From NCBI RefSeq assembly GCF_000177215.2, contig NZ_CM001368.1, positions 1,922,001-1,986,000 of the forward strand: a stretch of 64,000 nucleotides of DNA, in the 5' to 3' direction. The position numbers and the translations under genes are program-made. The notes beneath the pieces were generated by a model. The model was not told where the DNA came from and made no database searches. It saw nothing but the letters and a program-made list of their open reading frames with translations. Numbering within the stretch: position 1 is the first letter of the stretch; every line of letters starts with the position of its first letter. This DNA is from Solidesulfovibrio carbinoliphilus subsp. oakridgensis. GTDB taxonomy: Bacteria > Desulfobacterota > Desulfovibrionia > Desulfovibrionales > Desulfovibrionaceae. Shown in pieces: positions 5,790 through 54,096 of this stretch.

Positions 5790-5838
5790 ATGCCTCCGGC
5801 GGCCGGGGGGATCATCCCCCCGGACCCCCGGCAGGGGG
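5790..5838 (+). repeat. Modular GCCTCCGGCGG hairpin repeat, copy 1
   Basis: Leader GATGCCTCCGGCGG (5790-5802) is followed by a perfect hairpin, CCGGGGGGAT-C-ATCCCCCCGG (5803-5823), and then ACCCCCGG, which repeats the right arm. It lies between the convergent Sel1 and moxR genes, so it may act as a terminator although it lacks a T-tract. It is one of about seven related copies in the window. Confidence 0.8.
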
Positions 5839-21851: not shown

Positions 21852-21893
21852 ATGCCTCCGGCGGCCGGGGGGCGTCACGCCCCCCGGACCCCC
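21852..21893 (+). repeat. Modular GCCTCCGGCGG hairpin repeat, copy 2
   Basis: AATGCCTCCGGCGG is followed by the perfect hairpin CCGGGGGGCGT-C-ACGCCCCCCGG (21864-21886) and then ACCCCCC, a third copy of the right arm. It lies 24 bases after the AraC gene stop. The stem sequence differs from copy 1 at the apex with compensating changes. It is followed by about 120 bases with no recognisable feature. Confidence 0.8.
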
Positions 21894-22016
21894 CGAACGG
21901 GGTGGGCGGGAGTTGGGGAAGCGGGTGGGGCTGTGGTCGTGGCCGGGTGGGCGACGTGTGGCCGGATCGTGCGGTCGGGGCGCAATCGTCCGGGGGAGAC
22001 GCTGGCGGGACGACCG

Positions 22017-36156: not shown

Positions 36157-36238
36157 CCCCCTTCCCGGGCCGGGCGCGAGACCGTCTCGCGCCCGGCCCG
36201 CCTTGAACATTTCCTCCAACTCGCCTAGGCTTGGAGGC

Positions 36239-37522
36239 ATGCCCCCGCCAGCACGCGACCAGGCCGACGCACGCAGCGGCCGTTACAAGCGCGGCCTCAC
36301 CCTGCGCTATGTCGCAGCCCTGTGCCTGGTGGCCGCCCTGGCCCTCCTGTCCTACGGCGTCTTCCGCCATATCGGGGCCACCATCGACCGGTCGGCCGCC
36401 ATCACCGCCATCAACGGCTCCCAGCGCCTGCTCATCCAGCGCGTCCTGGCCCAGTGCCTGCTCCTGGCCGCCGCCGATGACGAGGAAGCCCGGCGCGACA
36501 TCCGGGCCCATCTGGCCCGGGCCGTGGACACCCTCGAAGCCAACCACGCCCACCTGCTGGCCGACCTCGGCGATCCCGGCTCCCTGGCCGCCCACTCCCC
36601 GGAGCTGGCCGCCCTCTACTTCAAGCCGCCCTACGAGCTCGACCGGCGCATGCGGTTTTTCCTGGACGCCACCCGGACCTTTTACCGCTCCGACGCCGGC
36701 CGCCCCGCCCTGTCCGATCCGAAATTCCTCGACGTTCTGGCCTTTGGCCAGGACGAGCTGCTGCGCGACCTCGGCAAGGTGGTCCAGGAATACCAGCGCC
36801 AGGCCGTCGGCCGCCTGACCATCCTGCGCCGGGTCGAGCTGGCCACCACCGTCGGCATGCTCGCCCTGCTCGCGGCCGTCGGCCTTTGCATTCTGCGCCC
36901 CATGGTCCGCCGCATCTGCGCCGACCGGGAACGCCTGGAAGGGGCCAACGAGGCCCTGACCGAACTGGCCGTCACCGACCAGCTGACCGGGGCCTACAAC
37001 CGCTTGAAGTTCAACCAGGTCATGGAGCACGAGATCAAGCGGACCGGCCGCTACGCCGAACCGCTCTCGGTTATCATGTTCGACATCGACCGCTTCAAAG
37101 TCGTCAATGACACCTACGGCCACGCCGCCGGCGACGACATGCTGCGCGAGCTGACAAGGCGGGTCCAGGCCGCCATCCGGGCCGTGGACTGGCTCTTTCG
37201 CTACGGCGGCGAGGAATTCGTGGTGGCCGCGCCCCACACCGGCCGGGCCCAGGCCGCCGTCCTGGCCGAAAAACTCCGCGCCCTGGTGGCCGGCGCCCCC
37301 TTCCCCCACGGCATCGCGGGCAGCATCAGCCTCGGCGTTACCGAGCTTGCCCCCGGCGAGACCGTGGAGGAACTCATGCAGCGCGTGGACGCGGCCCTGT
37401 ACGAGGCCAAGAATTCGGGAAGGAATCGGGTGGTCGTCGCGGAAGCGGGGAAGAGCGAAGAGGCCTCCGGCGGCCGGGGGGGATCATCCCCCCCGGACCC
37501 CCTGGGCGGGAACGTCGGGTAG
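36239..37522 (+). CDS. Membrane-bound diguanylate cyclase (GGDEF)
   Basis: A protein of about 427 residues. Two membrane helices (about 23-42 and 200-222) flank a periplasmic helical domain resembling PilJ/NarX-type sensors (INGSQRLLIQRVLAQ). The C-terminal GGDEF domain has DRFKVVNDTYGHAAGDD and the active-site GGEEF. RAVD five residues before it is an intact inhibitory I-site, so product feedback is expected. It makes c-di-GMP at the inner membrane. Start is uncertain: ATG 36239 has GGAGG only one base away, and TTG 36203 has no site. The last 20 or so residues (SGGRGGSSPPDPLGG) are encoded by a modular repeat that has run into the frame. Confidence 0.85.
   Translation: MPPPARDQADARSGRYKRGLTLRYVAALCLVAALALLSYGVFRHIGATIDRSAAITAINGSQRLLIQRVLAQCLLLAAADDEEARRDIRAHLARAVDTLEANHAHLLADLGDPGSLAAHSPELAALYFKPPYELDRRMRFFLDATRTFYRSDAGRPALSDPKFLDVLAFGQDELLRDLGKVVQEYQRQAVGRLTILRRVELATTVGMLALLAAVGLCILRPMVRRICADRERLEGANEALTELAVTDQLTGAYNRLKFNQVMEHEIKRTGRYAEPLSVIMFDIDRFKVVNDTYGHAAGDDMLRELTRRVQAAIRAVDWLFRYGGEEFVVAAPHTGRAQAAVLAEKLRALVAGAPFPHGIAGSISLGVTELAPGETVEELMQRVDAALYEAKNSGRNRVVVAEAGKSEEASGGRGGSSPPDPLGGNVG
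37462..37506 (+). repeat. Modular GCCTCCGGCGG hairpin repeat, copy 3 (inside a coding end)
   Basis: GGCCTCCGGCGG is followed by CCGGGGGGGAT-C-ATCCCCCCCGG (37474-37496) and ACCCCCT. It lies inside the 3' end of the diguanylate cyclase gene, adding a Gly/Ser/Pro tail. Same module as copy 1 with one more G-C pair in the stem. Confidence 0.8.
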
Positions 37523-37574: not shown

Positions 37575-37683
37575 GGGGGTGTCGGCGGCCTTGGCCGGGC
37601 TTTGACGGCCAAGGCCGCCGACGCCCCCGGACAGGGAGGGTCCGGGAGGGGGTAACCCCCTCCCGGCCGCCGGAGGCATCCCC
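37575..37683 (-). repeat. Modular GCCTCCGGCGG hairpin repeat, copy 4, with long second hairpin
   Basis: Read on the minus strand, directly after the lepB stop: GATGCCTCCGGCGG (37682-37669), then the perfect hairpin CCGGGAGGGGGT-T-ACCCCCTCCCGG, then ACCCTCCCT repeating the right arm. A second, 23-bp inverted repeat follows at 37575-37628 (arms start GGGGGYGTCGGCGGCC, eight-base loop) with one G-T mismatch. It may terminate lepB. Confidence 0.8.
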
Positions 37684-49570: not shown

Positions 49571-50917
49571 TCAGAGCGACCGCACGGCCCGGGCCGCCAC
49601 CGGGCAACAGAAATCCGCCCGGGTCACGTAGCCGAGTTCCACGTCCACGGCGTAGGCGCCGGCGTAGTTCGCCCGGTCCGCGCTCCACACCCGCCTGACC
49701 GGCTGGGAAAAGGCCGCCGGCTGGCAGTAGCCCGCCCCGGTCGGCTCCGGCGTCAGGATGGTCACAAGCTCGGCCACGGTCGGCAGCCGCCAGTCGGCGA
49801 AGCCGCCGAAACGCCCGGCGTTGAGCGCGTCCACATAAGTCCCGGCCTCCGGCCAGGTGACGGCATAGGGCGCGGCCTGGCGGACCCAGGCCAGTCCCGC
49901 GTCCGGGTCCCGGACCACGCCCCCGCCCATGTCCTTGAACCGCCCCGGCCAGTAGGCCGCCGGCCGCCAGAGCCCGTCCAGGCCAAAGGCTTCCCGGGCG
50001 TGGCGCGTGGGCACCATGACCGGCTCCCGCCGGGGCCGGTCGGCTCCCGCCGCCGTCCGGGGGGCGAGCAGGGCCTCCCCCGCTCCGGCGCACACCCCCT
50101 CCATCCGCCGCCGCCAGACCGCGTGGCTGGCGGCCAGGGCCTCGGCCATGACCCGGGCGCTCGGAAACCGTTTCCCCGGGCGCTCGGCCAGAGCCGTTTC
50201 GAGCAGGCTGTCAAAGGCGTGGCCGAGGTCCGGCACCAGGTCCCCGGGCCGCTCCCGGCCGGTTTCCGGCAGCCGGCCGGTCAGCATCCGGAAAAGCGTC
50301 ACCCCGGCCGCGTACAGGTCGGCCCGGGCGTCGGCCGCCTCGGGGTCGTCCTCCTGCTCGGGCGCGGCGTAATAGGGCGAGCCGACCTTGACGTTGGCCG
50401 GGCCGCGAAAGGTCTCGCCCCGGACCTTGGAGAGGCCCATGTCCGTGATTTTAAGGACATCGGCGTCGGTGACGAGGAGATTGAAGGGCTTCACGTCGCG
50501 GTGGACGATGCCGGCGTAGTGGAGCCTCGCCAGGCCGGCCAGGAGCTGGGCCCCGTAGCCGACCGCCCGGTCCACCGGCAGCCGGCGGCTGGCCGCCTCG
50601 ACCCGGTAGGTCTCGCCGATGACCGAACCGAGCGACTCCCCGTGAAACTCCATGACGAAATACGGCCAGCCGCCGGCCTCGCCGTAGTCGAACACATCGA
50701 CCACGTTCGGATGGCGCAGGCCGCCAAGGAGCGCGGCCTCGTCGCGAAAGGCCCGCTCCACCCGCTCCCGGCCCCACAGGCCAAGGGTCAGCTCGTTGGG
50801 GCGCAAAAGCTTCAAGGCCACCACCCGGCCGACCACCGGCACCCGGGCCTTGAAGACCGCGCCCATGCCGCCCCGGCCAAGGACGGCCTGGATGGGATAT
50901 CTGCCGATGGTACGCAT
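49571..50917 (-). CDS. Ser/Thr protein kinase with C-terminal DUF1566 domain
   Basis: A 448-residue protein. Hanks-type kinase over about 1-275: GRGGMGAVFKA glycine loop, VVALKLL with the ATP Lys, HRDVKPFN catalytic loop, ITDMGLSKV (DMG instead of DFG) and YYAAPEQ. Residues 315-448 hold a DUF1566/Lcl-like domain (GLAWVRQAAPYAVTWPEA, DWRLPTVAELVTIL, FCCPVAARAVRS), usually found on exported or sensor proteins. No transmembrane helix connects the two, so the DUF1566 part would be cytoplasmic here. ATG 50917 begins the conserved MRTIGRYPIQ lead-in; no strong ribosome site. A modular repeat begins a few bases upstream. Confidence 0.85.
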   Translation of the reverse strand: MRTIGRYPIQAVLGRGGMGAVFKARVPVVGRVVALKLLRPNELTLGLWGRERVERAFRDEAALLGGLRHPNVVDVFDYGEAGGWPYFVMEFHGESLGSVIGETYRVEAASRRLPVDRAVGYGAQLLAGLARLHYAGIVHRDVKPFNLLVTDADVLKITDMGLSKVRGETFRGPANVKVGSPYYAAPEQEDDPEAADARADLYAAGVTLFRMLTGRLPETGRERPGDLVPDLGHAFDSLLETALAERPGKRFPSARVMAEALAASHAVWRRRMEGVCAGAGEALLAPRTAAGADRPRREPVMVPTRHAREAFGLDGLWRPAAYWPGRFKDMGGGVVRDPDAGLAWVRQAAPYAVTWPEAGTYVDALNAGRFGGFADWRLPTVAELVTILTPEPTGAGYCQPAAFSQPVRRVWSADRANYAGAYAVDVELGYVTRADFCCPVAARAVRSL

Positions 50918-50923
50918 AGGGGA

Positions 50924-50999
50924 GGATGCCTCCGGCGGCCAGAGAGAAACTTTTTGAAAAAAGTTTCTCTCTGGACTCTCTTCAAAAACTTTCAAAAGG
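50924..50999 (+). repeat. Modular GCCTCCGGCGG hairpin repeat, copy 5 (A/T-rich stem)
   Basis: GATGCCTCCGGCGG is followed by CCAGAGAGAAACTTTTT - GA - AAAAAGTTTCTCTCTGG (50939-50974), a perfect 17-bp stem, then ACTCTCTTCAAAAACTTTC. This third segment can pair with the apical part of the hairpin in an alternative fold. It lies between the kinase start and the next gene's 3' end. Confidence 0.85.
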
Positions 51000-51096: not shown

Positions 51097-51178
51097 GCCC
51101 CCTTTCGGGGGGGCCGGGGATGATCCCCCCCGGCGGGTCCAGGGCAGCGCCCTGGCGGGGTCCGGGGCGGAGCCCCGG
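51097..51178 (-). repeat. Modular hairpin repeat, copy 6 (four hairpins, no leader)
   Basis: Read on the minus strand just after the phosphoesterase stop codon: CCGGGGC-TCC-GCCCCGG (51178-51162), CCAGGGC-GCT-GCCCTGG (51155-51139), a GGGATCATCCCC-type hairpin (51133-51114) and a last CCCCCCC-GAAA-GGGGGC hairpin. The order of modules is the same as in copy 7. The GCCTCCGGCGG leader is missing. Confidence 0.75.
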
Positions 51179-51179
51179 C

Positions 51180-51905
51180 TTACCGCAGCCTGTCGGCGTA
51201 GCGCGGGGGCAGGCCGCGGGCCAGGATCTTTCGGGCCACGGCCTCGATGTCGTAGGGCACGGCCCGGATGGCGAGGACGTGGGCCACGTCGTCGTAGAGG
51301 CCGTACTTGGCCCGGTTGTCGCCGTCGCGGGGCTGGCCCACGGAGCCGACGTTGACGATGTGCCGGCGTAGCGGGTCGAGGGGATTGTCCCCGAGGGCCA
51401 GCTCGTAACGCTCCACGTCGCGGCCGGCCAGGGAGGCGGCTTCGAGCATGTGGGTGTGGCCGACGAAGGACACACGCTCGGCCGTGCGGGCAAAGGCCCG
51501 GCGCAGCGTCACCTCGCCGGCCTCGAACAGATAGGTGCCGGTGTCGTTGGGCGGCAGGCCGTGGACGAAGCGGCAGCCGTAGAGCGACAGCGAGGTCGGA
51601 AAGGCGGCGATGCGGGCCACCAGTTCCGGAGGCAGAAGCTCCCGGGTCCGGGCCAGGGCCTCCCGGGCTTGCGGATTGAACCGGGACTCCCGGGCCGGAT
51701 CGGCCACGGCCCACTCGTGGTTGCCGCGCACGCTCGGGATGCCGCGTTCGGCCAGGAGCCGCAGCACGGCCTCCGGGTCCGGGCCGTAGCCCACGGCGTC
51801 GCCCAAGTTGACCACCGCCGCCGGCCGCTCCCGGTCGATGGCGGCCAGGACCGCTTCGAAGGCTTCGAGATTGGCGTGGATGTCGGCGATGACAGCGAGC
51901 AGCAT
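51180..51905 (-). CDS. Calcineurin-like metallophosphoesterase
   Basis: A 241-residue enzyme. Dinuclear-metal motifs are in order: ADIHANLEA (8-16), NLGDAVGYGPDP, RGNHEWA, and FVGHTHM. This is the YfcE/Icc-like branch that includes phosphodiesterases and protein phosphatases of broad specificity. The C-terminal NVGSVGQPRDGDN is also typical. The upstream region (51906-52104) contains no gene. Its substrate cannot be inferred; proximity to the Ser/Thr kinase is suggestive but the two are separated by repeats. Confidence 0.85.
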   Translation of the reverse strand: MLLAVIADIHANLEAFEAVLAAIDRERPAAVVNLGDAVGYGPDPEAVLRLLAERGIPSVRGNHEWAVADPARESRFNPQAREALARTRELLPPELVARIAAFPTSLSLYGCRFVHGLPPNDTGTYLFEAGEVTLRRAFARTAERVSFVGHTHMLEAASLAGRDVERYELALGDNPLDPLRRHIVNVGSVGQPRDGDNRAKYGLYDDVAHVLAIRAVPYDIEAVARKILARGLPPRYADRLR

Positions 51906-52004
51906 GGTGGCATTGTGGCAGCTTCGCCGGCACGGGGCAAGCTGCGTGGAAAGACGTCTCCGCCGGGTGAAAAAGCAGGGGAAAGGCGGCCGGCGCAAAA
52001 GAGG

Positions 52005-52041
52005 GACGCGCCTTCGGGGCCTATCCTCCCGAAGGCGCGTC
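52005..52041 (-). terminator. Terminator of the 52105-52449 gene
   Basis: GACGCGCCTTCGGG - nine bases - CCCGAAGGCGCGTC forms a perfect 14-bp stem, followed on the minus strand by CCTCTTTT. It lies 64 bases after the stop codon. Confidence 0.75.
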
Positions 52042-52104
52042 ATCGAAGCGAGGCAAAGCGAGGCGGGATGGGATGGAGGGGTCTAGAGGCGTTATCGGGA
52101 AATT

Positions 52105-53987: not shown

Positions 53988-54096
53988 GTGCCTCCGGCGG
54001 CCGGGGCTTTGCCCCGGACCCTGCTGGGGCTCCGCCCCAGACCCGGCCAGGGCGCTGCCCTGGACCTGCCGGGGGGGATCATCCCCCCGGCCCCCC
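53988..54096 (+). repeat. Modular GCCTCCGGCGG hairpin repeat, copy 7 (four tandem hairpins)
   Basis: GTGCCTCCGGCGG leads into CCGGGGC-TTT-GCCCCGG (54001-54017), CTGGGGC-TCC-GCCCCAG (54024-54040), CCAGGGC-GCT-GCCCTGG (54047-54063) and a CCGGGGGGGATCATCCCC-type hairpin (54069-54090), each followed by ACC. The leader and the last three hairpins show how copies 1, 3 and 6 relate to one parent. Confidence 0.85.

Follow-up and report, generated by a model that had tools for sequence, protein, structure and literature searches.

A family of dispersed repeats in Solidesulfovibrio carbinoliphilus subsp. oakridgensis joins a leader and a hairpin to a third segment that, judged by sequence comparison, is the mirror image of the hairpin's right arm, i.e., a parallel read-out of its left arm (G read as C, A as T, C as C, and T as A). 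Such a code makes triplex-type selection on the third strand probable. The broader reading, about which our judgment is evenly balanced, is that the family constitutes a new cross-phylum variant of intrastrand-triplex repeats, namely a dispersed intergenic DNA element for which we infer both the triplex and a function, possibly as a boundary at gene ends.

Anatomy of the Element and Its Copies in the Window

The top strand of the element reads leader, hairpin of the form CC(N)-arm-loop-arm-(N)GG, linker A, and third strand, and the bottom strand accordingly reads third strand (mostly G, A, and T), linker TCC, purine arm, loop, and complementary arm. Two classes can be distinguished, one with short, mostly G-rich stems and one with long stems that carry an apical TTTTTGNAAAAA and whose third strand mostly ends in AAAAAC; GGGGGAACCC-type and GGGAGGG-type copies are among the types of the repeat. 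Of 392 leader sites, a set collected with a slightly degenerate leader and in which overlapping loci are counted more than once, 291 have a hairpin that is perfectly paired over 6 bp or more.

Seven copies of a single design were reported in the initial annotation of the window (the whole 64-kb stretch of DNA that was analyzed). Six of them share the exact leader GCCTCCGGCGG (5792+, 21854+, 37463+, 37677−, 50928+, and 53990+), while the one placed at 51178 on the minus strand has no leader. The reported variety of positions proved correct throughout: the copy at 37463 overlaps the end of a GGDEF gene, others come after genes, and the copy at 50928 sits 5′ of a gene with a Pkinase domain. Copy 1 (5792–5829, plus strand) comprises the leader (5792–5802), a hairpin (5803–5823), the linker A, and the third strand CCCCC (5825–5829), and copy 2 (21854–21894, plus strand) is built likewise from a leader (21854–21864), a hairpin (21865–21887), an A, and CCCCCC (21889–21894). 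Copy 3 (37463–37502, plus strand), with its leader at 37463–37473, a hairpin extending to 37496, and the third strand CCCCC, lies within the final 60 nt of the GGDEF ORF (36203–37522). It forms an inward-facing pair with copy 4 (37634–37677, minus strand; leader 37677–37667, hairpin CCGGGAGGGGG...CCCCCTCCCGG, third strand CCCTCCC), and the stems of the two differ. Copy 5 belongs to the long class: its leader (50928–50938, plus strand) is followed by the hairpin CCAGAGAGAAAC-TTTTTGAAAAAA-GTTTCTCTCTGG (50939–50974), the linker A (50975), and the third strand CTCTCTTCAAAAACTTT (50976–50992), which reads as the parallel code of the left arm.

The remaining two copies have a modular layout. Behind the leader of copy 7 (53990–54095, plus strand; leader 53990–54000) comes a series of hairpin modules, and an ACCC(C)-type segment follows the majority of these. 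A leaderless hairpin array (51107–51179, minus strand) is 89% complementary to 54023–54095 and sits directly after the stop codon of a Metallophos ORF (51180–52043, minus strand). Tandem hairpin modules, for the most part trailed by such a segment, are seen both behind one leader (54001–54095) and without any leader (51107–51179).

Covariation of the Third Strand with the Hairpin

That the stem varies between copies and that the third segment changes together with both arms, as first noted within the window, is borne out by data from three phyla and from a single orthologous site. The accompanying claim that the third segment is a direct repeat of the right arm did not survive: where stems are asymmetric, the third segment matches the mirror, and G and C alike face a C. 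Mirror symmetry makes many of the short stems useless for telling a mirror from a direct repeat. Asymmetric short stems of the form AGGAGGGG(A), for which a direct repeat would give CCCC[T]CC, have the mirror CC[A/T]CCCC as third strand in 6 of 7 unique cases, and nine asymmetric short blocks show 8 mismatches to the mirror versus 17 to the direct repeat. A stricter count of 14 short pairs, confined to purine blocks with an internal A and with duplicates removed, has G opposite C at 72 of 79 positions. The 15 A positions in these pairs face T six times, A four times, C four times, and G once, with three of the C cases and the G located at the apical end of the block. Alternation of A and T at A positions is thus partial in short stems; it is rare in long ones.

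In the long stems, the third strand follows left-arm order (GGGGGAACCCTTTTTG with CCCCTTCCCAAAAAC; GAGAGAAACTTTTTG with CTCTCTTCAAAAAC). The T run is as long as the A run in 64 of 73 unique types (T5/A5 in 56 and T6/A6 in 8). Parsing of this class began with 159 pattern sites and left out 23 in which no right arm could be recognized, 4 truncated at the edge of a contig, and 3 containing N. For edit distances, 10 short stems, 7 types without a parsed third strand, and 1 with an over-long arm were removed from 81 unique types, after which one third strand was kept per stem type (42 of 54 pairs). Across these 42 stem types, the mean edit distance of the third strand was 1.60 to the parallel code, 2.93 to the strict mirror, and 4.55 to the direct repeat, and the parallel code gave 3.67 with shuffled and 2.77 with same-length shuffled controls.

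Because the parallel code had been picked after inspection, a pair model was fitted from random starting values. Log-likelihoods were −237.0 for parallel, −285.0 for antiparallel, and −304.7 for independent strands (−244.8, −293.3, and −306.4, respectively, when held out 6-fold). The model learned G>C at 0.97, C>C at 0.88, A>T at 0.67, and T>A at 0.48 (T>G 0.31), with arm A opposite C in about a quarter of cases. Parallel pairing also won in all three held-out groups, each predicted with the remaining groups as training data: Desulfovibrio-type (n = 16), Aminicenantes/Acidobacteriota (n = 20), and Clostridia (n = 6). With the worst edit distance and a pair model that prefers parallel strands, the direct-repeat reading was rejected. 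The third strand frequently falls short of the arm by one base. Given that cassettes probably carried the stem types from place to place, the 42 types amount to fewer than 42 independent events.

One group of stems among the Aminicenantes loci (e.g., L156 and L181) displays a recurring mismatched patch (left CGC/CTC, right CTG/CCG) below the apical T run, where the third strand reads GC/AC.

Proposed Alternative Pairing in RNA

The initial annotation interpreted the three covarying segments as a bistable RNA switch, in which the left arm of a transcript pairs with either the right arm or the third segment. The third segment does track the stem, and over mirror-symmetric stems (CCCTCCC, CCTCTCC) it is a direct repeat as well, but the covariation is parallel, not antiparallel. 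Since parallel strands cannot form Watson–Crick pairs, two alternative Watson–Crick partners for the left arm are excluded, and the switch is not supported. In RNA folding of three copies, the alternative state costs 11–24 kcal/mol. Copy 5 folds as a plain hairpin; keeping its right arm unpaired raises the energy from −28.6 to −9.1 (a cost of ∼19.5 kcal/mol), and the left arm still does not pair with the third segment. The copy at 37677 is more accommodating, as keeping its right arm open, at a cost of ∼11 kcal/mol (−44.1 to −32.8), allows the left arm to pair with the third segment. No Rfam family reached its gathering threshold in the 64-kb window. The exclusive Watson–Crick partners and antiparallel covariation that define a bistable switch or riboswitch are thus missing from this element, and we consider the explanation very improbable.

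A related proposal, that the third segment of copy 5 pairs with the apical half of the hairpin, holds for a 6-nt match (third-strand CAAAAA complementary to TTTTTG) and fails beyond it. This complementarity is found in 63 of 74 unique long types; the base after the match, however, follows the left arm in 31 of 42 types and the base after the loop G in 13 of 42. The idea that the third strand pairs antiparallel with the apical loop was rejected on these grounds, the match being confined to 6 nt and the covarying base following the left arm.

Copy Number and Host Range

Within the window, the leader with at most one mismatch is marginally enriched (22 found versus 14.4 expected, a number reached by 4 of 100 shuffles). 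The whole 4.22 Mb genome contains 372 copies of CCTCCGGCGGCC, 186 per strand, versus 8 (4 + 4) for the reversed control. Among 40 genomes searched, this one included, all 13 other members of the genus carry 121 to 313 copies; two further genera of the family reach 123 and 136, with the remainder at 0 to 32, and the 16 order-level genomes have at most 9 each. A long-stem pattern scan of named genomes retrieved at least 118 stretches, and the matches listed include MAGs of Aminicenantes and Acidobacteriota, Oscillospiraceae and other Clostridia, Solidesulfovibrio and other Desulfovibrionaceae, and a few single hits. These counts and the scan confirm, for relatives of this genus, the presence of similar sequences in other Desulfovibrio genomes that the initial annotation mentioned. 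Outside the family, whole-genome counts versus control were 331 versus 1, 96 versus 3, 74 versus 0, and 63 versus 7 in four MAGs (G041, G040, G042, and G053, respectively), while several Clostridia and others among the 16 genomes counted had few copies, not exceeding control.

Three apparent hosts were discarded. A contig filed under a Verrucomicrobiota MAG (L160) is likely a bin contamination because it shares both the element and its near flank with Solidesulfovibrio loci L213 and L261, and neither the one hit in Falkowbacteria (L131) nor the one in Desulfatibacillum (L158) resembles the element. Copy 5 found no match in plasmid and phage collections. A search of the literature outside subscription journals, leader and stem strings included, returned no title or abstract describing this element.

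Dispersal on this scale invites comparison with REP and REPIN sequences, which are likewise short palindromic intergenic repeats present in hundreds of copies and often in inverted pairs. A REP-like selfish repeat would be spread by a transposase and tolerated where no promoter is harmed, with the third-strand covariation traveling in each cassette. The hundreds of copies distributed equally over both strands, the range of 121 to 372 copies within the genus, the avoidance of divergent gaps (see below), and a Y1 transposase match in 8 of the 14 genus genomes all agree with such an origin. Yet PF01797, the Y1 transposase family, has no match in the genome with the most copies, nor in five other genus genomes (G004 among them), and a relative with four PF01797 matches (G014) has zero copies. 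Mobilization by a RAYT is therefore not supported, and the element differs in this respect from a REP accompanied by its transposase. A site shared by 7 of 14 species also speaks against spreading of this kind, and spreading alone leaves the mirror-coded third strand of each stem type unexplained; a third strand with a mirror code is not a known feature of REP sequences. We regard a REP-like origin as somewhat unlikely.

Genomic Context

Context was evaluated for 139 leader sites whose stem is perfectly paired over at least 6 bp, 8 of them inside called genes, against gene calls from a simple codon model rather than curated annotation. Among gaps longer than 40 nt in 1.664 Mb of the S. carbinoliphilus genome, the element occupies 50 of 159 convergent, 52 of 561 co-directional, and 2 of 194 divergent ones; in this genome it favors convergent gaps and stays mostly clear of divergent promoter regions. 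For the 97 short-class copies whose leader adjoins a 3′ end, the median distance to the stop codon is 19 nt. Close neighbors point inward in 27 of 29 pairs, and only one of the 27 inward pairs has like stems, versus 8.0 expected by shuffling (P 0.0006); an earlier test with less sequence and another definition of likeness gave 0 of 19 alike versus 2.6 expected (P 0.05).

A second genome of the genus (G004; 0.8 Mb, 22 copies) has the element in 0 of 82 divergent, 4 of 73 convergent, and 17 of 232 co-directional gaps, so that convergent gaps are not favored there, and there are no close pairs among the 22 copies. Because this genome shows no convergent-gap preference, our confidence in a boundary role, and in the overall reading, is reduced. 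By a crude ORF scan that left out sites less than 400 nt from a locus end, 8 of 38 Aminicenantes loci, 6 of 13 Clostridia loci, and 17 of 23 long-class loci of the genus lie next to a 3′ end; such simple scans are weak, and they revealed no gene-end bias in Aminicenantes.

Closeness to stop codons and near-absence from divergent gaps would also be expected of a transcription terminator or a stabilizer of mRNA 3′ ends, whose C/U-rich third segment may wind around the hairpin in the transcript to give an RNA triplex of the pyrimidine motif. Where the arm is purine, C+.GC and T.AT triplets would accommodate the parallel C/T-rich third strand, but A opposite A and C opposite C are not pyrimidine-motif triplets, and both orientations of the element are used. 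The hairpin is followed by the third strand with no U tract. Convergent 3′ ends have a U-tract terminator just as often with the element (11 of 70) as without it (35 of 218; P 1.0), and replacement of such terminators was rejected on this basis. The element is thus neither a hairpin with a U tract nor a substitute for one, and a role in termination or stabilization appears unlikely. An excess of sense-strand copies after stop codons (71 versus 17) was examined as an RNA signal and turned out to be mostly an effect of gap type, because the leader always abuts a 3′ end in a convergent gap. In co-directional gaps, neither orientation is clearly preferred (34 leaders at the 3′ end and 23 at the 5′ end), which does not indicate a sense-strand RNA role and argues against the bistable switch as well.

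The Kinase Site

The element occurs at the same place 5′ of the kinase gene in 7 of 14 genomes, including that of S. carbinoliphilus, where copy 5 lies near the start of an ORF with a Pkinase domain (49571–50917, minus strand). This sharing among species suggests long residence. The stem types at the site differ: the window copy has a GAGAGAAAC stem (GAGAGA type) with CTCTCTTC, and the other six genomes combine G-run stems and C-rich third strands, with single changes in some. The complement of the copy 5 leader holds a GGAGG 11 nt before the kinase start codon (50915–50933), and the spacing is 11–13 nt in the seven genomes with the element. By this spacing, the element may supply the ribosome-binding site of the kinase gene.

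The Third Strand as Part of a Proposed Intrastrand Triplex

In bottom-strand terms, G:C pairs in either order mostly have G in the third strand; over an A of the purine arm the third strand has mostly A, with T in some short stems, and over inverted T:A mostly T. This code resembles the reverse-Hoogsteen purine code (G.GC, A.AT, and T.AT), with a switch to Hoogsteen G/T over inverted pairs; the prevalence of G and T at those pairs would fit a change of the third strand to the other purine strand. The parallel polarity would permit Hoogsteen contact with the left arm, and it is precisely the polarity of a hairpin whose groove receives the strand that follows it. A purine-motif triplex is not known to need acid pH. 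PMC4666352 gives G on a G:C pair and either A or T on an A:T pair as purine-motif triplets and describes the complementary form of the motif as acid-favored, in agreement with this pH independence.

In the mechanism that we propose, selection would keep the third strand fit for the major groove of its own hairpin, and the resulting intrastrand triplex would form transiently, as DNA, upon strand separation. It may then act as a boundary at gene ends, either by stalling polymerases or by absorbing torsion, and unlike stems within an inward pair could stop the two copies from annealing to each other. A DNA boundary role of this kind strikes us as doubtful. The wider proposition is that several phyla maintain a heritable third DNA strand, with a family defined by one leader evolving new stems, each accompanied by a third strand that matches by triplex rules, the purine-strand switch included; we advance it tentatively, at somewhat less than an even chance. 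If true, it would constitute comparative-sequence evidence for intrastrand triplexes forming and mattering in living cells. Whether triplexes form in bacteria and are of use to them has long been an open question, and cross-phylum covariation of a third strand is the type of evidence that settled many RNA structures. The natural variants with matched and mismatched third strands are ready for a direct test.

Relation to Known Repeats

The potential intrastrand triplex (PIT)/TMECO elements of E. coli and the archaeal recurrent PQS are the closest described relatives of the present repeat. As in PIT/TMECO, an intergenic hairpin is adjoined by a third purine block in a triplex-compatible order, and this third strand mostly mirrors the central purine arm, allowing for A/T exchange, and is not a direct repeat of it. 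In a control with E. coli TMECO, the third strand of the 15 of 23 elements with a 10-nt G arm had 0–2 mismatches to the mirror and 4 to the direct repeat; among the eight with a 9-nt arm, seven fit both equally and one fits the direct repeat better. According to PMC4666352, CD and NMR show that TMECO adopt a triplex fold in vitro, DMS footprinting in vivo showed no protection, and work cited there found no promoter or terminator activity. The same paper has all five inverted TMECO pairs in E. coli combining two types, much as the inward pairs described above mostly combine unlike stems.

Several differences set the two apart. On the G-rich strand, the third strand lies 5′ of the hairpin here and 3′ of it in TMECO, and neither this strand order nor the sequence agrees with TMECO proper (consensus CCCTCNCCC N3-6 GGGNGAGGG N3 GGGNGAGGG). 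The present repeat also has its leader and many stem types, mixed purine/pyrimidine stems included, occurs in other phyla, and is strongly excluded from divergent gaps in the S. carbinoliphilus genome. A homopurine arm of 6–15 nt, the criterion of the ITxF search, is fitted by many short-class stems, while long-class arms contain inverted C and T blocks.

The recurrent PQS of Methanomicrobiaceae share the order of our bottom strand (G-rich third block, G arm, loop, and C arm) as well as a C3TC3 arm, and about half are located in tail-to-tail gaps with 11% in head-to-head gaps, as reported in PMC8044849. S1 probing and CD indicated an antiparallel triplex for them (PMC8044849). They differ in being archaeal and in having been described as G-quadruplex candidates, and coevolution of stem and third strand is not part of the description in the sections available (PMC8044849). 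By analogy with that proposal, the G runs on the bottom strand of the present element could form a four-stranded structure. Copies of the GGGAGGG type have the four G runs required (29 of 130 short-class types), but so do only 3 of 63 long-class types, which nevertheless possess the same architecture and code. The family as a whole is therefore not a repeat with four G runs on one strand; a G-quadruplex is possible for the GGGAGGG type only, is not viable as a general explanation, and is extremely improbable as the basis of the element.

Sequencing, Assembly, and Interrupted Copies

The accessible text of PMC3409199 describes GC-rich foldback DNA that stopped polymerases in sequencing and blocked closure of Desulfovibrio genomes. 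The element may be akin to these gap sequences; no repeat family, leader, or third strand is described in that text. The element may be a sequence that complicates the sequencing and assembly of these genomes. In 13 listed draft contigs, a leader lies within ∼300 bases of the contig start (G022 C4, C5, C10, C11, C13, C15, C19, C29, C30, and C32; G011:C2:25 and G011:C22:14; and G008:C11:36), and such leaders at draft-contig ends indicate that elements probably break assemblies. Locus L270 terminates in a long G run right behind a leader. Elsewhere on the S. carbinoliphilus contig, near 2033491 and 2372500, two hairpins are interrupted near the apex by the same foreign sequence starting with GGTATGAACCGGGTACATG, which is perhaps an insertion sequence targeting the hairpin.
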